This document shows, in pieces, positions 11,086 to 29,452 of a stretch of DNA of 29,452 nt. Origin of the DNA: Podochytrium sp. JEL0797 (taxonomy: Eukaryota > Chytridiomycota > Chytridiomycetes > Chytridiales > Chytriomycetaceae); contig JADGJG010000231.1 in assembly GCA_027596195.1 (NCBI GenBank), positions 1-29,452 on the forward strand, written 5' to 3'. Position numbers and translations under genes: made by a program. Below the pieces are notes generated by a model. It was given only the letters and a program-made list of their open reading frames with translations. It was not told the DNA's origin and ran no database searches. Each line of letters begins with the position of its first letter. The stretch's first letter is position 1.

Positions 11086-13097
11086 GCTTGGTGGGGTGAT
11101 TCTGTTATTTTGATTTGATTTTTGCTCGTTTTTTTTTGTTTGCTGTCTTTCGATTTATTCCTCAATCCACAATGCATAAAAGAGAAGTGGCAAGAAAGAG
11201 TTTTTTCCATCGCGTGGGGACATCCATTTCGTCGCTGTTTTCAACAAGGAAAATTCGAGAAACAAACCCCTTTTGGTCGTCATCACAATCCTGCCCTCCC
11301 TTGACCATATTTAGACGCCGCACAAGAGTTCCACAAAAATGAAGTAAGGAGGGTCTGGGGGAAGGTTTCGCAAAAAGCGTTGCCAAAGCGTAAACCTTTC
11401 GTTTTTCTTCACTCCCCGTCCATATTTAATATATATAAACGAAAATTACATTTATTTTATATTTTTGAGAAAAAATATAAATCAAATTAAAGGAACACCG
11501 TGTATAACGCCACCCCACCCCACATCCACCAACTAACGGGCAGTGGACCCACATCCCCATCACTGGGTCCCACGCTGAGTACCATGGGTGGTGAGGAATA
11601 CACTGAGAATACGTACCTTGAAAGCAGGGAATAAACTCCTGCGCGCAGGAGTTTAAGCGGCGAGGGCGGTCATGGTAAGGTTTCGGGTGACGAGGAGAAA
11701 TGTCTGCAACGGCCGAATCGCGCAAATCGTGGGAGGAGGTGGTATCGATGTGGGTCATATGTAAGTATCGTAAAGGGTTGTGTGAAAACGAAATGCTGCG
11801 CGACGCGAGTTAACAAACAAGCCTTCCTCTGCTCCCCCCCCCTCGCTCCTCGACAAAAAGAACGCTCACAGAGGTGTGTTTTCGAAGAATGTTTTTTTCG
11901 CGTTTTAGAGTTGAGAGCCCACGCAGGGAAAATGCCCGAAAATGGAGAGGCAGGCGGTCGAGAACCAAGACGCATTTATTGTAGAATCAACTGCAAATAA
12001 CATAGGAAAATAAAGGCTCTGACTCTGTTCCGACAACTATCCGTGAGTGTATCAAACGAGACTGAAATCAGAACCACTCAGGCCGAGACAGCCTTCTGGC
12101 TATCGGGACGCAGGATCCAACATCAGAACAGGTGATTCAAACGACCCACATGTCCGGTTGTTTCGCGAACTCCGTCAATGAGGTGGTTTCGGAAAAAAAC
12201 GAAACGAAAATCCGCACAGACGCATGATGGCGAATCGATCCGACAGCTACGCACTCGCCAGTAGAAGGATACAGAAACAGGAGCAGTAGGTGAGATGGAG
12301 AGAGTGCAGCGCAGTGTTGACGAAGACCAAGTGGGGTGAATGTTGATGGATCAAACACCGAAACAGGATGCCGATTCGCAATCACACGGCTCCATAAGAC
12401 TGAATTGGATGCAAACTCAATGTGAATCGCTGATGGGTTATATCCTCGCGCAAAGCCATGGCGATGTATTCAGGTCGCTCAGCATCTCTGCCGTGTTTCC
12501 CGTTCCAGTGGCTCAGTTGGAATCCGTCGCAGGGTTGTGATCACATCGATACGAGATATTGCACCAGATTGCCAGCGTCTGTTGGAAGACCAAATCGATT
12601 CACTTGGAACCATCCGCATCCAGCAAAACAAACACCGGCAAACAAATTCCGAAATTGGATCGACAGTGCCGTGGACTCGTGAAGTGCTGCTTTTTTTGTC
12701 TGAGACGCGCTGTTTGACCACGAAGGGATTGCTGGTTTGGATGCTCCGTACGTTCGAGTTTGTCGCTTTAGCGTGTCCCACCCACGCGCCGAAATGACAA
12801 ACGCAAGGCGATTTGATATCAGTGACCAATATGGAGATGATGCCGCATTCCAGGGGAGTGTTTGGTGGGGCTGAGACATGCCGGGGAGAGACTTAGCAGG
12901 TCTTTCGTCGCGATGCCACACCCAGCAGGTGGGACTCCCGTTGTCAGAGGGTTCGAGCTCACTCCCGGGAAACAATTCCGGGAAAGCGGAAGTTTCTGCA
13001 TCCGGTCGGATAGTTCGGAACGCTCCTTTTCCATCCTGCGCGGTGTTGATACGGTTTCCCCATATTCACGGAGACGAAACTCGTTGGATTCGAACAT
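11086..13097. other. About 2 kb without a recognisable gene
   Basis: The left end is the 3' region of the preceding gene and an AT-rich block (11410-11490). Further right, many short overlapping frames are open on both strands, but none shows a domain, a convincing exon chain or a consistent coding frame. A minus-strand frame from 11758 (MTHIDTTSSHDLRDSAVADI) could be a short exon, but it leads nowhere clear. The rest (about 12000-13097) may hold decayed repeat or gene sequence. A perfect palindrome lies at 11632-11655 and the inverted-repeat element begins at 13098. Confidence 0.4.
11632..11655. repeat. 24-bp perfect palindrome
   Basis: The two 12-base halves are exact reverse complements (first half TAAACTCCTGCG) with no spacer, centred between 11643 and 11644. 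It could form a cruciform or be a dimeric protein site. Nothing in the neighbourhood identifies a partner, and a palindrome of this length in 29 kb is uncommon by chance. Confidence 0.75.
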
Positions 13098-13122
13098 TAG
13101 ACAGGTTTCGCAATCGGGAAAT
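13098..13122 (+). repeat. Left terminal inverted repeat of the element
   Basis: Pairs with 13644-13668 over 25 bp with a single mismatch at position 5. The inner 20 bp are identical. TTTCCTTCG follows a few bases inside on both ends, so similarity continues past the terminal repeat with small indels. Confidence 0.85.
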
Positions 13123-13142
13123 TTGAATTTCCTTCGTTGAAT

Positions 13143-13169
13143 TTTCCTTGTGCGTTGGCCACAAGGAAA
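13143..13169. repeat. Subterminal hairpin with CCTTGTG motifs
   Basis: A 10-bp perfect stem (TTTCCTTGTG, 13143-13152, with CACAAGGAAA, 13160-13169) encloses a 7-base loop just inside the left terminal repeat. The same CCTTGTG/CACAAGG word recurs near 13203-13225 and near the right end (13602-13643). Clusters of this kind are typical transposase-binding subterminal repeats. Confidence 0.7.
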
Positions 13170-13643
13170 CTTGACTGTTCAAAATTCCTTGCCAAAAAAG
13201 CTCACAAGGAACAAAATATCCTTGTGACGAGGCCCCACTGCAACATGTCAAACAACACCCCCACCGCCTGCCACCGCCCTCGCGACTCTTCTGAGGAACC
13301 CGTAATGATTACGCCAGGTAGTTCAAGCTCGATGATGAGGTCCATGATGCTCAGTTTGTTAAAGCGGAATTGGAATTCGCAGTGGGATCGTCTAAAGCAT
13401 CGAAATCGAAGCGTGATTGTGGTATCTGGATCGCTTTGGAGCTTGTGAGTAAGGAGTGGCATCCGGCAGCCATTGCAATCAGCAGAGCGGCCTGCAAGCG
13501 GCGTTTTTTTCGCCTCCTGAGGTTGGCGACAGGTCCGACCATTGTTGATCGTGTTATTTGGAAGGATTTTTGATATTTTCTTTTTGCGAACACCATGTCA
13601 CCACAAGACATTCCTTGTGGCCACCGAAGGAAATCTCACAAGG

Positions 13644-13668
13644 ATTTCCCGATTGCGAAACCTCTCTA
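13644..13668 (-). repeat. Right terminal inverted repeat of the element
   Basis: Reverse complement of 13098-13122 with one mismatch. It ends 53 bp before the left boundary of the large tandem unit at 13722. Confidence 0.85.
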
Positions 13669-13878
13669 TTTATTCATACTTCCAGAAAATAGGGTGGGAG
13701 CAGTGGGAAGTAGCAAGAGCAAAAGAATAAAACCCGTGTGCTGGCAGCATTCCAACACATTCCCCCCCATGCCTTCTCGTAGAGAATGTTCACCGCCAGC
13801 CCACCGGGAGTACTTTTTCTAGTGATGCAGAGGTGGCGGACCTTTGCGAAGGCTTGCCACTAAGCATAACAAAAAAGT

Positions 13879-13961
13879 GATATCAAGCCAGAATTAAGCA
13901 AGTGCCAAGCCAAGTGCACAACAAAAAAAATTTGATATCAAGCCAGAATCGAGCACGTGCC
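13879..13961 (+). promoter_or_regulatory. Paired 28-bp direct repeat upstream of chitinase (copy 1)
   Basis: GATATCAAGCCAGAAT followed by a 12-base tail occurs at 13879-13906 and again at 13934-13961, 55 bp apart start to start, with 3 mismatches in 28. The second copy carries CACGTG while the first has CAAGTG. The spacing of about five helical turns would place two bound proteins on the same face. It lies 290-375 bp upstream of the chitinase start. Probable regulatory site, by inference. Confidence 0.55.
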
Positions 13962-14156
13962 GATGGGCCCAGCGTGCCACCCGCTGATCTTTCACCACCC
14001 GCTACAACGATTTGATCATGCCAGTTACGACCGCTGTTATCAGGATGTTATCAGCATGGCATTACGCAGCCGTGTGGTTTTCGAGGAAGTGTGCTTCGCG
14101 GCGAGGGAGCGATCAATTTTGCGGTCACGCACCGCAACACGTGACGGACACACGTG
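13954..14156 (+). promoter_or_regulatory. Three CACGTG boxes upstream of chitinase (copy 1)
   Basis: Palindromic CACGTG hexamers stand at 13954-13959, 14138-14143 and 14151-14156; the last two are both followed by AC. CACGTG is the core site for fungal bHLH regulators of the Pho4/Cbf1/SREBP group. All three lie within 300 bp of the chitinase ATG, and all three are conserved in the second copy although this region carries most of the inter-copy differences. A TATA-like TTTAAAAG follows at about 14199. Confidence 0.5.
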
Positions 14157-14252
14157 ACATTTGATGTCGCTTTTGGTTTGGAGCCACCTGAATCGGTTTA
14201 AAAGCGCAGGTATTCCCGCGGTGTTCATGTTCATGCGCCAACAATCTCAACA

Positions 14253-16970
14253 ATGAAACTCCTCTCCATCGTCTCGCTTGCTGTGGCGACCATTTATTCA
14301 GTCGCTGCTCTGGCCACACCACCAGTTGGCGAGGAATTCGTCGGTAAGTGAGGGAGCAACATTGATAGGCAACCGATTCTCAATTAATTTCTCAATTTCC
14401 CTGTCTCCCTTTTTTATAGGCGGCTATGTTCTGTTTGGAAACCCCAAGAAGCTCCAACTCCTCGCCGAGACCGCAGCGACTCTGCCAGTCAACCGCGTCT
14501 TTCTGTCGTTTGTCCGCCCCGACATGTACTACGTTCCAGGCTCCAACACGCTCGTCGGTGCCGGCTTGAATTACAACAACACGCAAACTGATTTCGGGTT
14601 CGCTGAGGTCAAGAAGTACGTGCAGCAGCTCCAAGCAGGGGGTGTGGAAGGTGAGAACGCTGTTGTTTCCCCAAAATCTTCGATTGACATCAACAACTCA
14701 TTCTCTTTTTTTTGTATTCAGTTTTCATCGCAATGGGTGGATGGGACTATACTTGCTGGCCATGGGCATACATGCAGGTAAATTATTTCTTCAATCTATT
14801 GATTGCAAATATTCCCTGAGATTAAAATCGGCCCACGTCTTTTCAACAGCACTCCATCTCCAACTACGGAACCACGTCACCCACCTTCCAATCCACGATC
14901 CAAAAGTACGGCGGGGGCAACGTGGCCAACTGTAACGAAGCGAACCAGTACTGTTACACCTGTGAACCCATCACGAACGGCAACACGCCCGAGTCCTTCA
15001 CCATTTTCCCGGAGCCCGAAAACAGCCCCACCTGGAAGCAAGCGCAGGCGTATGTGACGAGCAACAACAAGATGGGCGTGACGCCCGTCTGGCACCCGGA
15101 ATTGATCGGAGGCGCTTCTTATTCGACTCCTCTTAATGGCGTCGTAAAAGTGCCTGGAGATGCGACGTGGGCCAAGATGGGACGCGACCCGTACCAGGAT
15201 TTGGTGTACATGGCCAAGGACTTGGGTCTTGACGGTGTTGACATTGACGTGAGTTTGTTTTTCTTTTCAACTTAGTTCCTCGCACATTCTAATCGCAATT
15301 CCCATTTTCGAAACAGTACGAAGAGTTCTGGCACGCAGACATGTACTTTCTTTTATTATATTTTTTTATCTTTCCGTCCTGACCTCTTCAAAAGGTTCAA
15401 GGTGGATGCTTCTGCGCAAAAGAACTGTGGAAACGGGTGCACGCTGTTCCAGACTGTTTTCAAGGTGAGTTGGTGGCGGTGTGTTTGAATTTTGGAGGAG
15501 TTTGTGTTATGGTGCTAATGTTTCAAGTTTTGCAGTTCACGGCCATTCTTGAGGACCTCAGAATCAACGTCCAGAAAATCTACCCGAGCTTGAAAGTCGC
15601 AACGGCTGCCTCTGCCGCCGGCGCGTGGGCTGGCACGTGGTGGGGTGGAAACTTGAAGGGACTTACTCTCAACATGGTGCCCTCCTACCCAGACTTGGTC
15701 TCGTGGGTTGGCACTGGTGCCAACGCAGGCGGCTGGAACATTATGACCTACGACCTGTCCAACTCAACCGTCAACTGCCCCCCTGCGCCAGCCACGTGCT
15801 CCCTCGACGGACAAGTCGATTTCTACATGGCCCAGCACATTGCCGCTGGAGTGTCTGCCAACGTTGGATATGAACTCGGCACGCCCGCCTACCCCCCGTA
15901 AGTAATTGAGGATTTTCATTTTTCAAATCTTACTTCCGCACGTTCTTACCGTTTTTTTGCACAGACCCGCCGACAAAATTCACCAAATGCCCCTCTCCAA
16001 CGATCTCGCTGGTGCCATCTTGTCCAACGTGCAGCCCTACTACAAGGGTGGATTCTTTTGGGAAATGTTCAAGCCCCAAGGCTCCAACGGCGACGTTCCC
16101 GTCTCTGTCCTCGCCCAAGCCATCTGCAAAAAGATTCTTGGCGCCAACACTCCGCGTTGCTCTGGATCCATCCCCACTCTCGGCGGTCCTCCCGCTCTGC
16201 CAGGGTCTTCTGACGTTGTGAAAGTGTCGGACAAGCCAGCTGGCCCCAAACCTCTTGGCCCGCAACCCTGCGCCGCGCCTTTCGTGGCGACCCAGCAATA
16301 CACTGCCGGAAACAAGGCTTCCTTCCAGGGATACAACTACATCGTGAACTACTACCCCATCCTCGGAACGCTCCCAAACACTCCTTCGTCCGGCTGGGCC
16401 CAGCAGGGACTCTGCATCCCCACCACCGTCCCCACCGCTTCTACTGGCGTGCAACCCACCGCGGGCACAGCGGTTCCACCCGCCACGACCGCTGCCCCCC
16501 CGACGCAAGCAACGCCATGCCACCCGAGCTACGTCAAGGGCCAATCCTACAGCGCCTCCGCCCTCGTTTCTTACAACTCTGTCAACTACCAGGCCAAGTG
16601 GTGGCAATCGGGCGCCACGACGCCAGATCTTCCCGGCGACGGCGGTTGGGCCTCGCAGGGCGCTTGTTCGGGATCTGTGGCACCCAAGCCTAGCACCACC
16701 GCTCTCGCTGTTTCCACCTCAGCGGTTGTTCCCCCTCCCCAAACTACTGCCGCGGTCCAGAATACCACAGCGGTTGTTCCCCCTCCTCAAACGACTGCTG
16801 CGGTGCAGACCACCACGGCTTCCGCGCCCCAAACCACGGCTGCCGCCGGTACTTCTCCTCTTGGACAGGTCTGCACTGCTTATTCGTCTTCGCAGTGCGT
16901 GAACGGGACCATGTTCGTCTGTCTCGGGGCTGGGCCTTACACTTGGTCCGTCTGGTACAAGGGCTGCTGA
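14253..16970 (+). CDS. Secreted GH18 chitinase with C-terminal chitin-binding-type modules (copy 1)
   Basis: Eight exons (14253-14343, 14420-14650, 14722-14777, 14850-15248, 15317-15342, 15395-15464, 15536-15897, 15965-16970) give 746 residues, with GT-AG introns and matching phases throughout. Residues 1-21 are a signal peptide (MKLLSIVSLAVATIYSVAALA). The GH18 barrel shows IAMGGW (110-115) in the SxGG position, the catalytic DGVDIDYE (254-261, acid Glu261) split by intron 4, MTYD (361-364) and a barrel-end Trp (FFWEMF, 442-447). Two modules of about 50 residues (514-562 and 597-646, the second with YQAKWW) resemble CBM5/12. A Thr/Pro-rich linker leads to a four-cysteine C-terminal module (about 714-746). 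The enzyme would hydrolyse beta-1,4 GlcNAc bonds in chitin outside the cell or in the wall. The Cys-rich insert between barrel strands (around 145-165) is uncommon in GH18. Exons are assigned by eye from frame continuity. Confidence 0.88.
16722..16817 (+). repeat. Two 48-bp tandem repeats in the chitinase linker (copy 1)
   Basis: Units 16722-16769 and 16770-16817 each encode 16 residues containing AVVPPPQTTAAVQ. They lengthen the flexible, probably O-glycosylated linker ahead of the C-terminal Cys module. Confidence 0.8.
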
Positions 16971-16999
16971 AGAGAAAGAGGGTTTAATATAGAGAAAAG

Positions 17000-17026
17000 A
17001 ATAAAAGATAAGATGAATTTAATAAA
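17000..17026 (+). terminator. AATAAA polyadenylation signals after chitinase (copy 1)
   Basis: Two AATAAA hexamers (17000-17005, 17021-17026) lie 30-56 bp after the chitinase stop codon in A-rich sequence, the usual place for 3' end formation. Confidence 0.55.
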
Positions 17027-17046
17027 AGGGGAAGTTTCCAAATATT

Positions 17047-17358
17047 TTACTTTGCATCAACGTGTGTGGAAATTGATGTCCAATCAATGAACTTCGATAA
17101 TCTTTGGGCACAGCCTCTCAAATAATTCAAACTCACTGCGCATTCATCCAGCAGAATCAACGCGTTTCTCTGGTGGTAAAAATGAACTGAGGAGTCACCC
17201 GCTTCGCCCGAAGGAGAATCGTCCACGATTATCCGCTTTGGCCTTTCCGATTTCACAGTCGCGGCCATGAAAGTTCCCGCGGGTATATCTTTTTGCACAG
17301 TGTTCGCATGAAACGAGTGGGGCTCGCCATTAGGCGTCAATAATGAGAAATATTGCAA
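17047..17358 (-). CDS. Small hypothetical protein (copy 1)
   Basis: A 103-residue minus-strand frame (MQYFSLLTPNGEPHSFHANT at the N-terminus, ending in STHVDAK) fills the gap between the chitinase 3' end and the monooxygenase pseudogene. Its ATG lies 16 bp beyond the end of that pseudogene. It has mixed composition, no signal peptide and no membrane segment, and I recognise no domain. It may be a real short gene, a 3' exon of something lost, or a chance open frame. Confidence 0.3.
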   Translation of the reverse strand: MQYFSLLTPNGEPHSFHANTVQKDIPAGTFMAATVKSERPKRIIVDDSPSGEAGDSSVHFYHQRNALILLDECAVSLNYLRGCAQRLSKFIDWTSISTHVDAK

Positions 17359-17374
17359 AAATTAGAGCAGAAAT

Positions 17375-18732
17375 TCAGCTCGAATCCTGCGCAATCGCTT
17401 TCGAAACCTGTTCCGAACAGTCAATAACTTCAGGAAACTTAATCAAGTTACGAGTCAGCGCGAAAACGCAGACTCTCAACAAGAAGTGACCAAATCTGGC
17501 CCCAAATCTCGATTTCGCATAAAACCGCATCGCGAAATAGCGACTAAATTGCGAGGTTTTCGTGCCGCGCGGGACGCGGAGTCTTGAAAACAGCTCAAGC
17601 ACTTTGAACAAGTCCGACGCGCTGGGGAGCTGTTTCAACAGCTCCATCAAAATTCCAACGTCTTCAAGCCCAGTTGAAAGCCCCAACGCTGCGTTCGGCA
17701 CCATCCCATGCGCCGCGTCCCCAATCAACAAAATGCGCCCCTTGTGATATGTAGCCAAATCAGGCAAATTGTAAACACTCACGGGGGTGATTCGGTATGC
17801 CTTGCGCATCTCGACCTGATTCGCGCCAGTTTTCCAGAACGTCAGCCAACCTCGCAGAGTGTTCGGGCAGGTCATTGTACGGGCGGTAGTCTTGGGACTC
17901 TTCCGGATCGGGATCGCCAAACTTCACGGCTTGGATGGCAGCAATTTCATCCGAAACTTTGAAGACGCATACCATGTGGTTGTTCTTGCGGTCAACGTAG
18001 AACGCACACCGTTCATCAAGACGGATGTCGTGTTGCCTCAGATTGACGACGCCAATGTAGCCAATCACACCCGTGTATTGCGCCTTGAGGTCCGCGCCAA
18101 AGACTGTTCGACGCGTCGTTGAGTGAATTCGTCAGCACCAATAAGGAGGTCTCCACTGGATGAAGTTCCGTCGGCGAATTGGGCCGCGACACTGGATTCC
18201 GTGTTGACACTTGACAACAACAACGAATTGCTTGCCGATAAACGTTTGGACCCCGGCCTTGAAGGCAGTTTTGATACAGCTATCAAAATCATTCAGTCTC
18301 AGAATGGAGAACTGCAAGAATGCGAAACGTACTGTGGATCGAAGGATATGAACAAAACATTGAGTCGATGGTTCCTTATCACCACTATTGATTGCCAGTC
18401 TAATGGTCTCAGTTGAAATTGGACGCGATCCGTCGATTTTGAACCATTTGATCGTGGGTGAGGGGAGGGAGTTGGCCAAGACCTCGCCAAGCACTCCGAG
18501 CGATTTCAGCACGCGCAAGCCATGTGTTCCGACTAAAACGGTGCCTAAGCATCGGAATGAGACATCTCGCATAGATAGTCAGTCCGCGCCCACCTCCCGA
18601 TTCGCCAAAGTCGACTGCCTCATGCGGTGCACCTTGGACTTGATCATACAGAGTGCATTCGTGGCCCACTTGGCGGAGGGCAATTGCCGTAGCAGCGCCG
18701 ACGAGACCAGCTCCGGCGATAACGACTTTCAT
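17375..18732 (-). pseudogene. FAD-dependent monooxygenase pseudogene (copy 1)
   Basis: Paralogue of the plus-strand gene at 19159 with the same exon layout. The start (VVIAGAGLVGAATA) and both intron positions are kept, but the frame is broken at least four times against the intact paralogue. There is an 11-bp loss just after intron 2 (about 18265-18279), a 7-bp gain (about 18205-18235), a 1-bp loss after LLIGAD (about 18105-18140) and an 11-bp loss after LENW (about 17806-17826). Conserved blocks survive in separate frames, including GYIGVVNLRQHDIRLDERCA and LLIGDAAHGMVP. The breaks are identical in both large units, so decay came before the unit duplication. Some could in principle be spliced around, but four together make a functional enzyme unlikely. 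Confidence 0.8.
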
Positions 18733-18748
18733 GACCCAGTTCGGAGAT

Positions 18749-18898
18749 GCGAGAAAATTTGCAAAATTGAGATTCGGGCCCGGATTCAGTCACTTCTTGA
18801 AAAACTTTTTCGCACTGAAGCACGACGGGATCGAGTTTTCTGAAGTTCTAGACTGTTCGGAACAGGTTTCGAAAGCGATTGCGCAGTATTTGAGCTAA
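18749..18898 (+). pseudogene. C-terminal scrap of a monooxygenase gene, A (copy 1)
   Basis: The plus-strand frame reads ARKFAKLRFGPGFSHFLK and ends DCSEQVSKAIAQYLS with stop TAA at 18896-18898. It matches the end of the minus-strand pseudogene (FAKSRFGARFGHFLL after one adjustment, and DCSEQVSKAIAQ exactly). The downstream untranslated bases match as well. It abuts the start codon of that pseudogene in the opposite orientation. Only the last 50 or so codons of the gene are present. Confidence 0.75.
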
Positions 18899-19060
18899 AT
18901 TCGCTCTAATTTTTGCATCATTACATAAAGCTCATGCTCATGAACTAGGCAGTTTCCTGGGAGTTTCTTTCATTTTTTGACCTACATATTTTAAAATATC
19001 CGGGGTTTTAAGGTGTCGACGCCAAGTCAATGCCAAGTCGTTCAGCCCAGGCCTTCCTGA
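18899..19060. other. Spacer between the two divergent monooxygenase halves (copy 1)
   Basis: Short AT-rich spacer between scraps A and B. The first bases continue the similarity to the 3' flank of the pseudogene (TCTAATTTTTGCA). Nothing else is recognised. With the scraps on each side it must also serve as promoter region for the plus-strand monooxygenase. Confidence 0.4.
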
Positions 19061-19150
19061 TAAGTCTTGAAAAAAATGAGTTTGGAAATCCAGGCCAGAT
19101 CGATCGATGAAATAGAATCTCGATTTTGCAAATTTTCTCGCTATCTCCAA
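19061..19150 (-). pseudogene. C-terminal scrap of a monooxygenase gene, B (copy 1)
   Basis: The minus-strand frame MEIARKFAKSRFYFIDR, then GLDFQTHFF, matches scrap A at DNA level over the first 30 or so bases (GCGAGAAAATTTGCAAAAT). It then continues weakly after a short insertion. It sits directly upstream of the intact monooxygenase start codon, opposite in direction, exactly as scrap A sits beside the pseudogene. It is more decayed than A, and the far end is a judgement. Confidence 0.55.
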
Positions 19151-19158
19151 ACTGGGTC

Positions 19159-20553
19159 ATGAAAGTCGTGATAGCCGGAGCTGGTCTCGTCGGTGCTGCT
19201 ACTGCAATCGCCCTCCGACAAGTGGGCCACGAATGCACGCTATATGATCGAGTCCACTTGGCTCACACGGAGAATGGAGCCAACGAGGCAGTCGATTTTG
19301 GCGAAGTGGGAGGTGGGTGCGCCGTGTAGACTGATCTCTGATCCAACAACGGCTAACATCGATTGTTTGTGAATCAGGTGCCGTTCTAGTGAGTTCAACG
19401 GGCTTGCGCGTGCTCAAGTCTCTCGGTGTGCTTGGCGAAGTCCTGGCCAACTCTCTGCCTACTCCGCTCATCAAATGGTTCAAAATCGACGGATCGTGTC
19501 CAATTTCGATTGATACCATCAGAATGGCAATCAATAGTGGTGATAGGGACCCATTGACTCAATGCGCCGCTTATATCCTTCGTTCCCTGGTCTGTTCCAC
19601 ATATTTTCCGTTTTCGATGGATTAAACGAATTCGACAGCTGCATGAAATTTTGATCAAGGCTGCCTTCAAGGCCGGGGTCAAAACGATTGTCGGCAAGAA
19701 ACTCATTGGCGTTGTCCAAACGGAATCCAGTGTCACGGCTCAATTTGCTGACGGAACTTCAGCCAGCGGAGACCTCCTCATAGGCGCCGACGGAATCCAC
19801 TCAATGACACGTCAAAAAGTCTTTGGAGCCCACCTCAAAGCACAATACACTGGCGTGATTGGCTACATTGGCGTCGTCAATCTGAAGCAACACAACATTC
19901 GTCTCGATGAACGGTGTGCATTTTACCTTGACCGCAAGAACAAACTCATGGTTTGCGTCTCCAAGGTTTCGGATGAAGTCGGGACCATCCATGCTGTGAC
20001 ATTCAAAGATCTCGATCCAGAGGAGTCACAAGACGACGCGTACCGCCCGTACAATGACTTGCCTAAACACTCTGCTCGGTTGGCCGACTTTCTGGAAAAC
20101 TGGGGCGCTCCCGCACACGCGGTGAAGATGATGCGCAATGCCTACAGCATTTCCCCAACGAGCATTTACGATTTGCCAGATCTGGCCAGATACCACAAGG
20201 GCCGCGTTTTGTTGATTGGAGACTCGGCTCACGGAATGGTTCCAGCTGGAGGGTTGGGCTTGTTGGCGGGACTGGAAGATGTTTGGACATTGTTGGAGCT
20301 ATTCAAACAGCTTCCCCAAGGCACAGAACTGTCGAGAGTTTTGGAGCTCTATTCGAAAATTCGCGTTCCATTGGCTGCTGAAAAGGCCCAACGCAGTCGC
20401 AAGATGGCTGATCAGAAATTCAAAATGTCAATTTTCGGAAGTCGATTCAGCCATTTTGTGATGAGGGTGGGTGTATTTGCGTTCAACGGTGATTTTGTCA
20501 AGTTTGACAAAGTTTTTGATGCTCCAAAAGCAGTGAAAACCGCGATTAAATAA
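19159..20553 (+). CDS. FAD-dependent monooxygenase, PHBH/salicylate-hydroxylase-like (copy 1)
   Basis: Three exons (19159-19312, 19378-19589, 19639-20553) give 426 residues. The N-terminal Rossmann motif GAGLVG (7-12) binds the FAD ADP part, GADGIHS (171-177) is the DG motif, and GDSAHGMVPAGGLG (316-329) is the second FAD motif that contacts the ribityl chain. Length and motif order fit group A flavoprotein monooxygenases (FAD_binding_3), which use NAD(P)H and O2 to hydroxylate aromatic or polyketide-like substrates. The substrate cannot be named. The second intron has a weak donor (GTCTGT) but is supported by phase and by restoring the helix LHEILIKAAFKAG; the pseudogene has an intron at the same place. 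Neither a signal peptide nor a membrane anchor is seen. The gene is transcribed away from its broken paralogue and converges with the SulP fragment. Confidence 0.82.
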
Positions 20554-21009
20554 ATTATATACGTATCAATTGACTCCCCCGAATTGTTGTCCACACCTCC
20601 GCCATGCAATCGAACGTCTCGGCAAACTCGGCCTAGTTGTGATTGAAAAGCAAACACGCCAATGCGCAACAAGAAATGCCCAAACCCTCCCGTAAGAACC
20701 ATTCCTTACATATCCTCCGAAAGTTGGCCTCATCTTTTGATGTGTCTGCGGCCTATGAAGTACGCATTCTCCCGGAGGGGGAGGGGGTGTAGAATTAGCG
20801 ATGGAAGATTGCCCGAATACGCCTGCTTGCGCGTTGGCAAACTTCAATACTTCAACGTGTGCTACGAACATGGCTATACCTCACCTGGGAGTTTTTGGGT
20901 ACAACTATAGAACCTTTTCATTTTTATATATCTTGGTAAGGGAGAGGTTAATGAGAACAACAAGTATTGCATTCAATTCATTTTACTTATAAGGTTTACA
21001 TACAAAAGA
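20554..21009. other. Intergenic region after the intact monooxygenase (copy 1)
   Basis: It holds AT-rich 3' sequence, monooxygenase scrap C (20595-20702, minus) and then about 300 bp in which I see no gene. Two short open plus-strand frames (20662-20910, 20801-20992) have no recognisable content. Confidence 0.45.
20595..20702 (-). pseudogene. C-terminal scrap of a monooxygenase gene, C (copy 1)
   Basis: The minus-strand frame contains GGFGHFLLRIGVFAF followed by QLGRVCRDV. This corresponds to FGHFLLRVCVFAL in the minus-strand pseudogene and FSHFVMRVGVFAF in the intact gene. Similarity stops on both sides. It faces the intact gene tail to tail, so it is a third leftover of an older monooxygenase array. 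Confidence 0.6.
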
Positions 21010-21615
21010 TCACTTTGACTCGCTCACAACCTCCACCGTATTCCGAGAATCCGCCATCACCACATCCCTTGTTTCCACCTCCGCCGCCTGCACAGCCTCA
21101 TCCACGCTGAAATGGAAATACTCCAGAGCAGCCAACTTCCCTTCCCGCTCCATACTCACCGTCTCGGGGTCCTTCTTGAACTTTTTCAACAACCCCGCCA
21201 CAAACCCTTCCTGATGATGACTCGGTGCACCAGGGGTCGCATCCACACTCGCTCCCGAAATCGTCCCTGGAACACGCACGAGTGTGTTCAACTGCTGTTT
21301 CCGCACATTGGCGAAATGGAATGGCACAGAACGGCCCGCGAACCGCATCAAATCGTCTTTGGAGTCCAGAAGCGCTTGAAGACCAGTGTAATCCACATTG
21401 TTGACGGCCGAAAAGTCTAACACGATTGCACGAAGAGGAGGCAACGCGTCCGTGAGCCCCTGCGCCTCTCGTGCACGTGCGCGTTCTTCGGTATCGTCGC
21501 TCCACACACGGTCGGATGATTTGGTGATGGAGTTGGTGTATCGGAAGTGTGTCAACACGGTTTCCTTGAGACGGTCGCCAAAGTATAAAGAATAAAACCC
21601 GTGTGCTGGCAGCAT
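21010..21615 (-). pseudogene. SulP sulfate transporter, C-terminal STAS part only, with a junction-made start (copy 1)
   Basis: The minus-strand frame has 201 codons. From YFGDRLKETV onward it is the C-terminal cytosolic part of a SulP-family anion transporter. The STAS core is LPPLRAIVLDFSAVNNVDY with TGLQALLDSKDDL, then HFANVRKQQ. The membrane domain is absent. The upstream boundary at 21586/21587 is the junction of the two large units, and the first 10 or so codons (MLPAHGFYSL) are antisense sequence of the next unit's leader. The fusion is in frame, so a soluble STAS-only protein could be made if this strand is transcribed, but it cannot transport sulfate. I treat it as a truncated gene. 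Confidence 0.75.
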
Positions 21616-21743
21616 TCCAACACATTCCCCCCCATGCCTTCTCGTAGAGAATGTTCACCGCCAGCCCACCGGGAGTACTTTTTCTAGTGATGCAGAGGTG
21701 GCGGACCTTTGCGAAGGCTTGCCACCAAGCACAACAAAAAAGT

Positions 21744-21826
21744 GATATCAAGCCAGAATGAAGCAAGTGCCAAGCCAAGTGCACAACAAAAAAAATTTGA
21801 TATCAAGCCAGAATCGAGCACGTGCC
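21744..21826 (+). promoter_or_regulatory. Paired 28-bp direct repeat upstream of chitinase (copy 2)
   Basis: Same pair as in copy 1, at 21744-21771 and 21799-21826. The first member differs from copy 1 by one base (G for T after GAAT). Confidence 0.55.
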
Positions 21827-22022
21827 GATGGGGCCCAGCGTGCCACCCGCTGATCTTTCACCACCTGCTACAACGATTTGATCATGTCAGTTACGCCCGC
21901 TGTTATCAGGATGTTATCAGCATGGCATTACGCAGCCGTGTGGTTTTCGAGGAAGTGTGCTTCGCGGCGAGGGAGCGATCAATTTTGCGGTCACGCACCG
22001 CAACACGTGACGGACACACGTG
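21819..22022 (+). promoter_or_regulatory. Three CACGTG boxes upstream of chitinase (copy 2)
   Basis: CACGTG at 21819-21824, 22004-22009 and 22017-22022, all intact although surrounding bases differ between copies at six places. Confidence 0.5.
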
Positions 22023-22118
22023 ACATTTGATGTCGCTTTTGGTTTGGAGCCACCTGAATCGGTTTAAAAGCGCAGGTATTCCCGCGGTGTTCATGTTCAT
22101 GCGCCAACAATCTCAACA

Positions 22119-24836
22119 ATGAAACTCCTCTCCATCGTCTCGCTTGCTGTGGCGACCATTTATTCAGTCGCTGCCCTGGCTACACCACCAGTTGGCGAGG
22201 AATTCGTCGGTAAGTGAGGGAGCAACATTGATAGGCAAACGATTCTCAATTAATTTCTCAATTTCCCTGTCTCCCTTTTTTATAGGCGGCTATGTTCTGT
22301 TTGGAAACCCCAAGAAGCTCCAACTTCTCGCCGAGACCGCAGCGACTCTGCCAGTCAACCGCGTCTTTCTGTCGTTTGTCCGCCCCGACATGTACTACGT
22401 TCCAGGCTCCAACACGCTCGTCGGTGCCGGCTTGAATTACAACAACACGCAAACTGATTTCGGGTTCGCTGAGGTCAAGAAGTACGTGCAGCAGCTCCAA
22501 GCAGGGGGTGTGGAAGGTGAGAACGCTGTTGTTTCCCCAAAATCTTCGATTGACATCAACAACTCATTCTCTTTTTTTTGTATTCAGTTTTCATCGCAAT
22601 GGGTGGATGGGACTATACTTGCTGGCCATGGGCATACATGCAGGTAAATTATTTCTTCAATCTATTGATTGCAAATATTCCCTGAGATTAAAATCGGCCC
22701 ACGTCTTTTCAACAGCACTCCATCTCCAACTACGGAACCACGTCACCCACCTTCCAATCCACGATCCAAAAGTACGGCGGGGGCAACGTGGCCAACTGTA
22801 ACGAAGCGAACCAGTACTGTTACACCTGTGAACCCATCACGAACGGCAACACGCCCGAGTCCTTCACCATTTTCCCGGAGCCCGAAAACAGCCCCACCTG
22901 GAAGCAAGCGCAGGCGTATGTGACGAGCAACAACAAGATGGGCGTGACGCCCGTCTGGCACCCGGAATTGATCGGAGGCGCTTCTTATTCGACTCCTCTT
23001 AATGGCGTCGTAAAAGTGCCTGGAGATGCGACGTGGGCCAAGATGGGACGCGACCCGTACCAGGATTTGGTGTACATGGCCAAGGACTTGGGTCTTGACG
23101 GTGTTGACATTGACGTGAGTTTGTTTTTCTTTTCAACTTAGTTCCTCGCACATTCTAATCGCAATTCCCATTTTCGAAACAGTACGAAGAGTTCTGGCAC
23201 GCAGACATGTACTTTCTTTTATTATATTTTTTTATCTTTCCGTCCTGACCTCTTCAAAAGGTTCAAGGTGGATGCTTCTGCGCAAAAGAACTGTGGAAAC
23301 GGGTGCACGCTGTTCCAGACTGTTTTCAAGGTGAGTTGGTGGCGGTGTGTTTGAATTTTGGAGGAGTTTGTGTTATGGTGCTAATGTTTCAAGTTTTGCA
23401 GTTCACGGCCATTCTTGAGGACCTCAGAATCAACGTCCAGAAAATCTACCCGAGCTTGAAAGTCGCAACGGCTGCCTCTGCCGCCGGCGCGTGGGCTGGC
23501 ACGTGGTGGGGTGGAAACTTGAAGGGACTTACTCTCAACATGGTGCCCTCCTACCCAGACTTGGTCTCGTGGGTTGGCACTGGTGCCAACGCAGGCGGCT
23601 GGAACATTATGACCTACGACCTGTCCAACTCAACCGTCAACTGCCCCCCTGCGCCAGCCACGTGCTCCCTCGACGGACAAGTCGATTTCTACATGGCCCA
23701 GCACATTGCCGCTGGAGTGTCTGCCAACGTTGGATATGAACTCGGCACGCCCGCCTACCCCCCGTAAGTAATTGAGGATTTTCATTTTTCAAATCTTACT
23801 TCCGCACGTTCTTACCGTTTTTTTGCACAGACCCGCCGACAAAATTCACCAAATGCCCCTCTCCAACGATCTCGCTGGTGCCATCTTGTCCAACGTGCAG
23901 CCCTACTACAAGGGTGGATTCTTTTGGGAAATGTTCAAGCCCCAAGGCTCCAACGGCGACGTTCCCGTCTCTGTCCTCGCCCAAGCCATCTGCAAAAAGA
24001 TTCTTGGCGCCAACACTCCGCGTTGCTCTGGATCCATCCCCACTCTCGGCGGTCCTCCCGCTCTGCCAGGGTCTTCTGACGTTGTGAAAGTGTCGGACAA
24101 GCCAGCTGGCCCCAAACCTCTTGGCCCGCAACCCTGCGCCGCGCCTTTCGTGGCGACCCAGCAATACACTGCCGGAAACAAGGCTTCCTTCCAGGGATAC
24201 AACTACATCGTGAACTACTACCCCATCCTCGGAACGCTCCCAAACACTCCTTCGTCCGGCTGGGCCCAGCAGGGACTCTGCATCCCCACCACCGTCCCCA
24301 CCGCTTCTACTGGCGTGCAACCCACCGCGGGCACAGCGGTTCCACCCGCCACGACCGCTGCCCCCCCGACGCAAGCAACGCCATGCCACCCGAGCTACGT
24401 CAAGGGCCAATCCTACAGCGCCTCCGCCCTCGTTTCTTACAACTCTGTCAACTACCAGGCCAAGTGGTGGCAATCGGGCGCCACGACGCCAGATCTTCCC
24501 GGCGACGGCGGTTGGGCCTCGCAGGGCGCTTGTTCGGGATCTGTGGCACCCAAGCCTAGCACCACCGCTCTCGCTGTTTCCACCTCAGCGGTTGTTCCCC
24601 CTCCCCAAACTACTGCCGCGGTCCAGAATACCACAGCGGTTGTTCCCCCTCCTCAAACGACTGCTGCGGTGCAGACCACCACGGCTTCCGCGCCCCAAAC
24701 CACGGCTGCCGCCGGTACTTCTCCTCTTGGACAGGTCTGCACTGCTTATTCGTCTTCGCAGTGCGTGAACGGGACCATGTTCGTCTGTCTCGGGGCTGGG
24801 CCTTACACTTGGTCCGTCTGGTACAAGGGCTGCTGA
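22119..24836 (+). CDS. Secreted GH18 chitinase with C-terminal chitin-binding-type modules (copy 2)
   Basis: Exons are 22119-22209, 22286-22516, 22588-22643, 22716-23114, 23183-23208, 23261-23330, 23402-23763 and 23831-24836. The protein is identical to copy 1. Of four differences inside the gene, two lie in the signal-peptide exon (Ala and Ala codons), one in exon 2 (Leu codon) and one in intron 1; all three coding changes are silent. Catalytic DGVDIDYE, both CBM5/12-like modules and the Cys-rich end are unchanged. Upstream it now faces the end of unit 1, so its distal promoter beyond 468 bp differs from that of copy 1, where the inverted-repeat element lies nearby. Confidence 0.88.
24588..24683 (+). 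repeat. Two 48-bp tandem repeats in the chitinase linker (copy 2)
   Basis: Identical to the pair at 16722-16817, so the repeat number has not changed since the unit duplicated. Confidence 0.8.
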
Positions 24837-24865
24837 AGAGAAAGAGGGTTTAATATAGAGAAAAG

Positions 24866-24892
24866 AATAAAAGATAAGATGAATTTAATAAA
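24866..24892 (+). terminator. AATAAA polyadenylation signals after chitinase (copy 2)
   Basis: Same two hexamers as in copy 1, at 24866-24871 and 24887-24892. Confidence 0.55.
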
Positions 24893-24912
24893 AGGGGAAG
24901 TTTCCAAATATT

Positions 24913-25224
24913 TTACTTTGCATCAACGTGTGTGGAAATTGATGTCCAATCAATGAACTTCGATAATCTTTGGGCACAGCCTCTCAAATAATTCAAACTC
25001 ACTGCGCATTCATCCAGCAGAATCAACGCGTTTCTCTGGTGGTAAAAATGAACTGAGGAGTCACCCGCTTCGCCCGAAGGAGAATCGTCCACGATTATCC
25101 GCTTTGGCCTTTCCGATTTCACAGTCGCGGCCATGAAAGTTCCCGCGGGTATATCTTTTTGCACAGTGTTCGCATGAAACGAGTGGGGCTCGCCATTAGG
25201 CGTCAATAATGAGAAATATTGCAA
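24913..25224 (-). CDS. Small hypothetical protein (copy 2)
   Basis: The same 103-residue frame as in copy 1, without change. Identity here adds no evidence for function because the whole surrounding 7 kb is identical. Confidence 0.3.
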   Translation of the reverse strand: MQYFSLLTPNGEPHSFHANTVQKDIPAGTFMAATVKSERPKRIIVDDSPSGEAGDSSVHFYHQRNALILLDECAVSLNYLRGCAQRLSKFIDWTSISTHVDAK

Positions 25225-25240
25225 AAATTAGAGCAGAAAT

Positions 25241-26598
25241 TCAGCTCGAATCCTGCGCAATCGCTTTCGAAACCTGTTCCGAACAGTCAATAACTTCAGG
25301 AAACTTAATCAAGTTACGAGTCAGCGCGAAAACGCAGACTCTCAACAAGAAGTGACCAAATCTGGCCCCAAATCTCGATTTCGCATAAAACCGCATCGCG
25401 AAATAGCGACTAAATTGCGAGGTTTTCGTGCCGCGCGGGACGCGGAGTCTTGAAAACAGCTCAAGCACTTTGAACAAGTCCGACGCGCTGGGGAGCTGTT
25501 TCAACAGCTCCATCAAAATTCCAACGTCTTCAAGCCCAGTTGAAAGCCCCAACGCTGCGTTCGGCACCATCCCATGCGCCGCGTCCCCAATCAACAAAAT
25601 GCGCCCCTTGTGATATGTAGCCAAATCAGGCAAATTGTAAACACTCACGGGGGTGATTCGGTATGCCTTGCGCATCTCGACCTGATTCGCGCCAGTTTTC
25701 CAGAACGTCAGCCAACCTCGCAGAGTGTTCGGGCAGGTCATTGTACGGGCGGTAGTCTTGGGACTCTTCCGGATCGGGATCGCCAAACTTCACGGCTTGG
25801 ATGGCAGCAATTTCATCCGAAACTTTGAAGACGCATACCATGTGGTTGTTCTTGCGGTCAACGTAGAACGCACACCGTTCATCAAGACGGATGTCGTGTT
25901 GCCTCAGATTGACGACGCCAATGTAGCCAATCACACCCGTGTATTGCGCCTTGAGGTCCGCGCCAAAGACTGTTCGACGCGTCGTTGAGTGAATTCGTCA
26001 GCACCAATAAGGAGGTCTCCACTGGATGAAGTTCCGTCGGCGAATTGGGCCGCGACACTGGATTCCGTGTTGACACTTGACAACAACAACGAATTGCTTG
26101 CCGATAAACGTTTGGACCCCGGCCTTGAAGGCAGTTTTGATACAGCTATCAAAATCATTCAGTCTCAGAATGGAGAACTGCAAGAATGCGAAACGTACTG
26201 TGGATCGAAGGATATGAACAAAACATTGAGTCGATGGTTCCTTATCACCACTATTGATTGCCAGTCTAATGGTCTCAGTTGAAATTGGACGCGATCCGTC
26301 GATTTTGAACCATTTGATCGTGGGTGAGGGGAGGGAGTTGGCCAAGACCTCGCCAAGCACTCCGAGCGATTTCAGCACGCGCAAGCCATGTGTTCCGACT
26401 AAAACGGTGCCTAAGCATCGGAATGAGACATCTCGCATAGATAGTCAGTCCGCGCCCACCTCCCGATTCGCCAAAGTCGACTGCCTCATGCGGTGCACCT
26501 TGGACTTGATCATACAGAGTGCATTCGTGGCCCACTTGGCGGAGGGCAATTGCCGTAGCAGCGCCGACGAGACCAGCTCCGGCGATAACGACTTTCAT
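25241..26598 (-). pseudogene. FAD-dependent monooxygenase pseudogene (copy 2)
   Basis: Carries the same four frame breaks as the copy 1 pseudogene (about 26131-26145, 26071-26101, 25971-26006 and 25672-25692). Shared lesions date the decay before the unit duplication. Confidence 0.8.
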
Positions 26599-26614
26599 GA
26601 CCCAGTTCGGAGAT

Positions 26615-26764
26615 GCGAGAAAATTTGCAAAATTGAGATTCGGGCCCGGATTCAGTCACTTCTTGAAAAACTTTTTCGCACTGAAGCACGACGGGATCGA
26701 GTTTTCTGAAGTTCTAGACTGTTCGGAACAGGTTTCGAAAGCGATTGCGCAGTATTTGAGCTAA
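26615..26764 (+). pseudogene. C-terminal scrap of a monooxygenase gene, A (copy 2)
   Basis: Identical to scrap A of copy 1, ending in DCSEQVSKAIAQ plus three residues and a TAA stop. Confidence 0.75.
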
Positions 26765-26926
26765 ATTCGCTCTAATTTTTGCATCATTACATAAAGCTCA
26801 TGCTCATGAACTAGGCAGTTTCCTGGGAGTTTCTTTCATTTTTTGACCTACATATTTTAAAATATCCGGGGTTTTAAGGTGTCGACGCCAAGTCAATGCC
26901 AAGTCGTTCAGCCCAGGCCTTCCTGA

Positions 26927-27016
26927 TAAGTCTTGAAAAAAATGAGTTTGGAAATCCAGGCCAGATCGATCGATGAAATAGAATCTCGATTTTGCAAATT
27001 TTCTCGCTATCTCCAA
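26927..27016 (-). pseudogene. C-terminal scrap of a monooxygenase gene, B (copy 2)
   Basis: Identical to scrap B of copy 1, directly upstream of and opposite to the intact monooxygenase. Confidence 0.55.
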
Positions 27017-27024
27017 ACTGGGTC

Positions 27025-28419
27025 ATGAAAGTCGTGATAGCCGGAGCTGGTCTCGTCGGTGCTGCTACTGCAATCGCCCTCCGACAAGTGGGCCACGAAT
27101 GCACGCTATATGATCGAGTCCACTTGGCTCACACGGAGAATGGAGCCAACGAGGCAGTCGATTTTGGCGAAGTGGGAGGTGGGTGCGCCGTGTAGACTGA
27201 TCTCTGATCCAACAACGGCTAACATCGATTGTTTGTGAATCAGGTGCCGTTCTAGTGAGTTCAACGGGCTTGCGCGTGCTCAAGTCTCTCGGTGTGCTTG
27301 GCGAAGTCCTGGCCAACTCTCTGCCTACTCCGCTCATCAAATGGTTCAAAATCGACGGATCGTGTCCAATTTCGATTGATACCATCAGAATGGCAATCAA
27401 TAGTGGTGATAGGGACCCATTGACTCAATGCGCCGCTTATATCCTTCGTTCCCTGGTCTGTTCCACATATTTTCCGTTTTCGATGGATTAAACGAATTCG
27501 ACAGCTGCATGAAATTTTGATCAAGGCTGCCTTCAAGGCCGGGGTCAAAACGATTGTCGGCAAGAAACTCATTGGCGTTGTCCAAACGGAATCCAGTGTC
27601 ACGGCTCAATTTGCTGACGGAACTTCAGCCAGCGGAGACCTCCTCATAGGCGCCGACGGAATCCACTCAATGACACGTCAAAAAGTCTTTGGAGCCCACC
27701 TCAAAGCACAATACACTGGCGTGATTGGCTACATTGGCGTCGTCAATCTGAAGCAACACAACATTCGTCTCGATGAACGGTGTGCATTTTACCTTGACCG
27801 CAAGAACAAACTCATGGTTTGCGTCTCCAAGGTTTCGGATGAAGTCGGGACCATCCATGCTGTGACATTCAAAGATCTCGATCCAGAGGAGTCACAAGAC
27901 GACGCGTACCGCCCGTACAATGACTTGCCTAAACACTCTGCTCGGTTGGCCGACTTTCTGGAAAACTGGGGCGCTCCCGCACACGCGGTGAAGATGATGC
28001 GCAATGCCTACAGCATTTCCCCAACGAGCATTTACGATTTGCCAGATCTGGCCAGATACCACAAGGGCCGCGTTTTGTTGATTGGAGACTCGGCTCACGG
28101 AATGGTTCCAGCTGGAGGGTTGGGCTTGTTGGCGGGACTGGAAGATGTTTGGACATTGTTGGAGCTATTCAAACAGCTTCCCCAAGGCACAGAACTGTCG
28201 AGAGTTTTGGAGCTCTATTCGAAAATTCGCGTTCCATTGGCTGCTGAAAAGGCCCAACGCAGTCGCAAGATGGCTGATCAGAAATTCAAAATGTCAATTT
28301 TCGGAAGTCGATTCAGCCATTTTGTGATGAGGGTGGGTGTATTTGCGTTCAACGGTGATTTTGTCAAGTTTGACAAAGTTTTTGATGCTCCAAAAGCAGT
28401 GAAAACCGCGATTAAATAA
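27025..28419 (+). CDS. FAD-dependent monooxygenase, PHBH/salicylate-hydroxylase-like (copy 2)
   Basis: Exons are 27025-27178, 27244-27455 and 27505-28419. The 426-residue product is the same as in copy 1, with GAGLVG, the DG motif and GDSAHGMVPAGGLG intact. If both units are real, the genome carries two identical intact genes for this flavoenzyme here. Confidence 0.82.
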
Positions 28420-28875
28420 ATTATATACGTATCAATTGACTCCCCCGAATTGTTGTCCACACCTCCGCCATGCAATCGAACGTCTCGGCAAACTCGGCCT
28501 AGTTGTGATTGAAAAGCAAACACGCCAATGCGCAACAAGAAATGCCCAAACCCTCCCGTAAGAACCATTCCTTACATATCCTCCGAAAGTTGGCCTCATC
28601 TTTTGATGTGTCTGCGGCCTATGAAGTACGCATTCTCCCGGAGGGGGAGGGGGTGTAGAATTAGCGATGGAAGATTGCCCGAATACGCCTGCTTGCGCGT
28701 TGGCAAACTTCAATACTTCAACGTGTGCTACGAACATGGCTATACCTCACCTGGGAGTTTTTGGGTACAACTATAGAACCTTTTCATTTTTATATATCTT
28801 GGTAAGGGAGAGGTTAATGAGAACAACAAGTATTGCATTCAATTCATTTTACTTATAAGGTTTACATACAAAAGA
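28420..28875. other. Intergenic region after the intact monooxygenase (copy 2)
   Basis: Same content as 20554-21009: AT-rich 3' sequence, scrap C, then about 300 bp in which I see no gene. Confidence 0.45.
28461..28568 (-). pseudogene. C-terminal scrap of a monooxygenase gene, C (copy 2)
   Basis: Identical to scrap C of copy 1 (GGFGHFLLRIGVFAF in the minus-strand frame). Confidence 0.6.
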
Positions 28876-29452
28876 TCACTTTGACTCGCTCACAACCTCC
28901 ACCGTATTCCGAGAATCCGCCATCACCACATCCCTTGTTTCCACCTCCGCCGCCTGCACAGCCTCATCCACGCTGAAATGGAAATACTCCAGAGCAGCCA
29001 ACTTCCCTTCCCGCTCCATACTCACCGTCTCGGGGTCCTTCTTGAACTTTTTCAACAACCCCGCCACAAACCCTTCCTGATGATGACTCGGTGCACCAGG
29101 GGTCGCATCCACACTCGCTCCCGAAATCGTCCCTGGAACACGCACGAGTGTGTTCAACTGCTGTTTCCGCACATTGGCGAAATGGAATGGCACAGAACGG
29201 CCCGCGAACCGCATCAAATCGTCTTTGGAGTCCAGAAGCGCTTGAAGACCAGTGTAATCCACATTGTTGACGGCCGAAAAGTCTAACACGATTGCACGAA
29301 GAGGAGGCAACGCGTCCGTGAGCCCCTGCGCCTCTCGTGCACGTGCGCGTTCTTCGGTATCGTCGCTCCACACACGGTCGGATGATTTGGTGATGGAGTT
29401 GGTGTATCGGAAGTGTGTCAACACGGTTTCCTTGAGACGGTCGCCAAAGTAT
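28876..29452 (-). CDS. SulP sulfate transporter, C-terminal STAS part (partial, runs off window; copy 2)
   Basis: The minus-strand frame is open from the window edge to the stop at 28876-28878. It contains the STAS domain (LRAIVLDFSAVNNVDY, then GLQALLDSKDDL) and a charged C-terminal tail (DVVMADSRNTVEVVSESK). SulP transporters import sulfate or related anions with a membrane domain that would lie beyond the right edge. If the unique flank follows here, this is the 3' end of the complete parental gene. If another unit follows, it is again a truncated copy. Confidence 0.65.
   Translation of the reverse strand, partial: YFGDRLKETVLTHFRYTNSITKSSDRVWSDDTEERARAREAQGLTDALPPLRAIVLDFSAVNNVDYTGLQALLDSKDDLMRFAGRSVPFHFANVRKQQLNTLVRVPGTISGASVDATPGAPSHHQEGFVAGLLKKFKKDPETVSMEREGKLAALEYFHFSVDEAVQAAEVETRDVVMADSRNTVEVVSESK

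Follow-up and report, generated by a model that had tools for sequence, protein, structure and literature searches.

The window analyzed here, the whole stretch of 29,452 bases, is one entire contig (C148) in the 24.4-Mb, 995-contig genome of Podochytrium sp. JEL0797, a chytrid of the order Chytridiales, and the fungal origin proposed in an earlier note was therefore correct. BLASTN of the window against itself aligned 13722-21586 with 21587-29452 on the same strand over 7866 columns at 99.86% identity, with 10 mismatches and 1 single-base gap, which confirms the head-to-tail near-identical repeat reported from the letters alone. Copy 1 of this 7.87-kb unit (13722..21586, plus strand) comprises 7865 bases and copy 2 (21587..29452, plus strand) comprises 7866, the last of which is also the last base of the contig. 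Each unit contains a GH18-type chitinase gene and flavin monooxygenase sequences, as the note had stated and as a spliced gene model and Pfam PF01494 now support, followed by part of a sulfate-transporter gene.

The chitinase gene (HDU98_005122) lies at 14253..16970 on the plus strand in copy 1 and at 22119..24836 on the plus strand in copy 2. Its spliced model has 8 exons and encodes 746 amino acids, equal to the public protein HDU98_005122 (P0121). The two gene copies differ at three coding positions, all silent, and the predicted proteins are identical. The GH18 catalytic motif is DxxDxDxE, and the protein carries a matching DGVDIDYE at residue 254. Its PF00704 (GH18) score was 22.7 bits, below the curated cut-off of 29.6; PF00704 is present in the precomputed domain list of the relative P0122. 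The CBM5/12 domain (PF02839) was borderline, scoring 26.1 against a cut-off of 26.2 in the whole protein and 27.6 in the last-exon open reading frame (ORF). A search of solved structures with the first 412 chitinase residues gave 0 matches up to E 0.1. Within the same fungus, relatives share 76% (P0122), 63% (P0123), and 73% (P0124) identity; genes for the first two lie in tandem on contig C730, and that for the third lies on the 64,854-base contig C357. Further relatives occur in Chytriomyces, Rhizoclosmatium, Siphonaria, and Obelidium, and among the GH18 plus CBM5/12 chitinases of Chytridiales and Mortierella, HDU98_005122 shows nothing out of the ordinary; its Pfam GH18 score is sub-threshold. 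A PF00704 profile search of the genome gave a list of 56 matches, from which C148, C730, and C357 were absent. That search missed this chitinase subfamily, probably because the exons are short and the score is weak.

The FAD monooxygenase gene (HDU98_005123, 426 amino acids, PF01494 at 93.9 bits against a cut-off of 22) occupies 19159..20553 on the plus strand, with its second copy at approximately 27025-28419. Upstream of it, tblastn with the protein P0001 detected an inverted FAD-monooxygenase-like copy on the minus strand at 17393..18732 (copy 2 at approximately 25259-26598). This copy matches in three frames. The note had described pseudogenes in both units; the inverted copy may be either a pseudogene or an intron-split gene. 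In self-BLASTN, the inverted pair within a unit (17354-18917 versus 18760-20316) showed approximately 76 to 79% identity over the aligned pieces. HDU98_005123 has many relatives, several of those listed being on 171,620-base and 40,927-base contigs of Podochytrium sp. JEL0797 and others on contigs of Rhizoclosmatium sp. JEL0117; in Chytridiales, PF01494 genes form clusters. In contrast to such clusters, the unit holds one full gene and one inverted three-frame relative. On the 171,620-base contig, approximately 16 of the listed relatives lie between HDU98_000015 and HDU98_000071. Ten ORFs, which cover part of the window, were scanned with Pfam and gave no sign of the suggested link to secondary metabolism. 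The chitinase, the FAD monooxygenases, and the transporter fragment described below belong to ordinary families that are already multicopy in this fungus.

Both units end within a sulfate-transporter (SulP) gene on the minus strand. ORF, Pfam, and alignment evidence placed the 3' STAS part of this gene at 21010..21586, cut at the junction between the units, and the same fragment of copy 2 at 28876-29452, cut at the contig end (STAS domain PF01740, 25.6 against a cut-off of 22.6). The SulP membrane domain (PF00916) had no place on this contig among the 40 matches listed. The earlier description of two complete units thus holds for the letters but is not confirmed for the biology, since unit 2 has its right edge where the contig stops and the transporter gene is truncated at 21586 as well as at 29452. 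A relative of this gene on contig C556 (86% identity over 635 columns) continues unbroken past the cut point and includes the linker and the membrane portion, and another on contig C946 extends 44 bases past the cut point, where its contig starts. A third contig, C168, opens partway through the front part of a closely related SulP gene (positions 1-717, 97% identity to C556), so that transporter genes are broken at the end of C148 and at the starts of C946 and C168. The identity between C168 and C556 rounds to 100% within the initial 400 bases of C168, while the back part of the transporter gene in the window shares no more than 84 to 86% identity with its counterparts on C556 and C946. Gene conversion or collapse is possible as the source of this contrast between front and back parts. 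Close transporter paralogs appear to tangle the assembly here. The last 150 bases of the contig matched four places (both units and the C946 and C556 relatives), and no continuation contig was found among them; C168 could follow either C148 or C946. The smallest contig met in the searched assembly had 10,250 bases, compared to a protein of the strain that is encoded on a 4,777-base contig, so short contigs seem to be missing and the search for a right-hand neighbor would have covered only the longer ones.

The differences between the units are confined to one edge. When they were listed singly, all 11 (10 substitutions and 1 indel) fell within the first 739 of 7866 positions, at 13861..14460 in copy 1 and 21726-22326 in copy 2, and the remaining 7126 bases (14461..21586 and 22327-29452) were identical. 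The left edge thus diverges by approximately 1.5%, and under an even spread the chance of such clustering is approximately 5e-12 by our own arithmetic, for a 739-base boundary picked after the data were seen. Three of the four differences in the chitinase gene are silent and the other is intronic, and for this reason the differences look like true variants rather than read errors. Two versions of the left end therefore seem to exist, with the body printed twice without difference. Version A adjoins the unique flank and version B adjoins the junction, and outside the unit the two diverge immediately (GAGCA/AAAGAAT at 13721/13722 versus AGTAT/AAAGAAT at 21586/21587). Unit 2 stops at base 29452 of 29452, leaving a block of exactly two units and no right flank. 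The window contains no N, the junction at 21586/21587 included. Beyond the two copies on C148, the searched assembly contained no further copy of the left 200 bases of the unit, nor did it contain a second haplotype of the first 300 bases of the window. Just left of the unit lies a dispersed repeat of approximately 110 bases (13551-13660, 98% identity to C515:2-111, at the start of that contig). Sequence similar to contig C134 was also seen at 13564-13670 (97%, C134:2191-2295) and at 13189-13300 (96%, C134:709-817).

A set of 21 contig ends was compared against 46 loci and the window, scoring exact matches that begin at the last base of a contig. Three of the 21 ends had a match elsewhere of exactly 55 bases: the C148 end (C946:45-99), the C531 start (C531:1542, reversed), and the C311 start (C160:498). 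The other 18 had no match of that length, and once self-repeats were set aside the longest remaining match was 30 bases. The self-repeats left out of this comparison comprised the matches of the C148, C531, and C730 ends to their own tandem copies and that of the C730 start, a simple repeat, to itself at a one-base shift, which extends over up to 64 bases. At the contig end of the window, the 55-base match to C946:45-99 covers 29398..29452 on the minus strand; the units do not differ in this part, so the match recurs at the internal junction (21532..21586, minus strand). When C946 was aligned to the window (537 columns, 81 non-identical), only one exact run reached 55 bases, the one at the junction, and the next longest were 52 and 38. 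By our own arithmetic, an independent breakpoint would land at that spot approximately once per several hundred tries. A breakpoint made in the cell has no reason to sit exactly one assembly word from the nearest mismatch of a paralog. Because the exact end overlaps have one fixed length, they suggest de Bruijn assembly with 55-base words, and it is on this basis that we infer both the word length and the type of assembler. SPAdes is commonly run with 55-base words. We also considered a word length of 99, drawn from C946:1-99 together with a 239-base array at the C730 end (99 + 2 x 70), and rejected it in favor of the three exact 55-base end matches, which fit better. With 55-base words, C730 shows only an array cut by the contig end.

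We self-aligned 13 other contigs (rows above 200 bits) that had been chosen for their transporter or chitinase relatives rather than at random. Six were compared whole (C531, C946, C939, C730, C510, and C160) and seven in part, with their right ends outside the compared stretch (C976, C188, C204, C168, C177, C219, and C311); no N was present in any of the stretches compared. On C531, 6628-11448 equals 11449-16269 over 4821 bases with zero differences, and the contig ends 2 bases later, at 16271. This doubled block holds a sulfate-transporter gene. The last 200 bases of C531 matched only C531 in the searched assembly. Because the contig overruns the unit by 2 bases and that end has no 55-mer partner in the searched assembly, C531 looks more like a true breakpoint than like a false joint. 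C730 ends within an array of 70-base period. No terminal doubled block was present in the other four whole contigs (C946, C939, C510, and C160) or seen in the compared parts of the seven partial ones. On contig C79, two pairs of GH18 matches (35217-36558 and 41468-42809) are offset by 6251 bases with equal scores and stop counts and possibly represent another repeated block.

Taking the edges, the differences, and the end matches together, we consider it probable, at roughly 60%, that the doubling is a product of the assembly graph rather than a proven recent gene amplification. An assembler using 55-base words probably wrote one 7.1-kb path twice, having entered it first by one and then by the other of two left ends that differ slightly, so that the contig would read flank, version A, and body, and then version B and body. 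The two left ends would be alleles or a close paralogous pair. The joint would likely lie at the end of the graph edge of the body, where the shared 55-mer forks, and 21586/21587 would then be two joined path ends rather than a breakpoint in DNA. The contig probably stops where a 55-mer common to another sulfate-transporter gene would fork the graph. The simplest fit is a single locus whose left 0.74 kb occurs in two versions. Because unit 2 ends with the contig, the differences cluster, the end matches are of 55 bases, and C531 has the same layout, the copy number, the near-identity, and the junction are all probably set by the graph. The identity of the body is uninformative on age, since two printings of a single graph path are bound to be identical, and nothing in the sequence dates a duplication. 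The doubling thus stands as an observation on the letters, but the proposal that it is very recent or homogenized, and that it represents segmental amplification, does not follow from a unit that coincides with the contig end, differs only in its first 739 bases, and has the 55-base word at both unit ends. In draft chytrid genomes, expansions of gene families are easily taken as adaptation to chitin. Such claims can be checked by asking whether a contig end closes a whole unit, whether the differences lie at one end, and whether the edge lies one word from a mismatch to a paralog.

Several observations argue against an artifact. The joint contains no Ns, and to our knowledge assemblers have no step in which two paths are joined without overlap or gap. 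The order flank, unit, unit, and end is also what a short-read graph would yield for a real tandem duplication. C531 overruns its unit by 2 bases, as would be expected of a true breakpoint with 2-base microhomology, and 18 of the 21 contig ends tested had no 55-base match. We also compared the block with marks of false and of true duplication. By our own criterion, copies in a false duplication are bounded by a contig end or a graph word, as they are here; in a true tandem, differences are expected along the whole unit or not at all, and here 11 of 11 are at one edge. In a 2022 study (Genome Biol. 2022, PMC9516828), gaps between copies are listed as a mark of false duplication, and the heterotype false duplications described there likewise place two near-identical copies on one contig, here possibly alleles printed as paralogs. 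Unlike in that description, the copies on C148 are not separated by Ns. In the parts available to us, the literature on the strain, false duplications, chytrid GH18 proteins, and assembly-graph collapse contained nothing on this locus.

The same layout can arise from a real tandem duplication of two or more copies, in which the junction exists in DNA and forms a loop in the graph of which only two turns were printed. We regard this as possible but somewhat improbable. The absence of Ns is consistent with it, as are the flank-unit-unit-end layout in two contigs (C148 and C531), the position of version A beside the unique flank and of version B beside the junction, the GH18 match pairs of C79, and the two related chitinase genes in tandem on C730. 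It would, however, require that the breakpoint happened to land at a distance of exactly 55 bases from the closest mismatch to C946. Under a real duplication, the divergence between copies may exceed that printed, since only reads near the unique left flank are assignable to a copy. In a special case of such a duplication, which we judge quite unlikely, the event would be very recent or the copies homogenized by gene conversion or unequal crossing-over, the left edge of copy 1 having escaped. The 7126 identical bases next to an edge with approximately 1.5% difference fit this idea, and divergence is the expectation for units at the edge of a tandem array; a short-read graph, though, would print a shared path identically whatever the truth, so the identity would be no evidence. 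Less probable still is a cycle derived from an extrachromosomal circle of the locus or an amplification chimera, outside the chromosome. Either would give the same graph loop, but the two left-end versions and the 55-base position would go unexplained.

A duplication that proved real would be an ordinary one, involving a segment whose gene families already have multiple copies. In its broadest form, which we hold to be unlikely, C148 would carry an array of two or more 7.87-kb chitinase-monooxygenase units in which ongoing conversion or unequal exchange maintains the identity of the body, the outer left edge having drifted by approximately 1.5%, and the chitinase, monooxygenase, and transporter families would all be growing by segment duplications of the kind represented by C148, C531, and C79.
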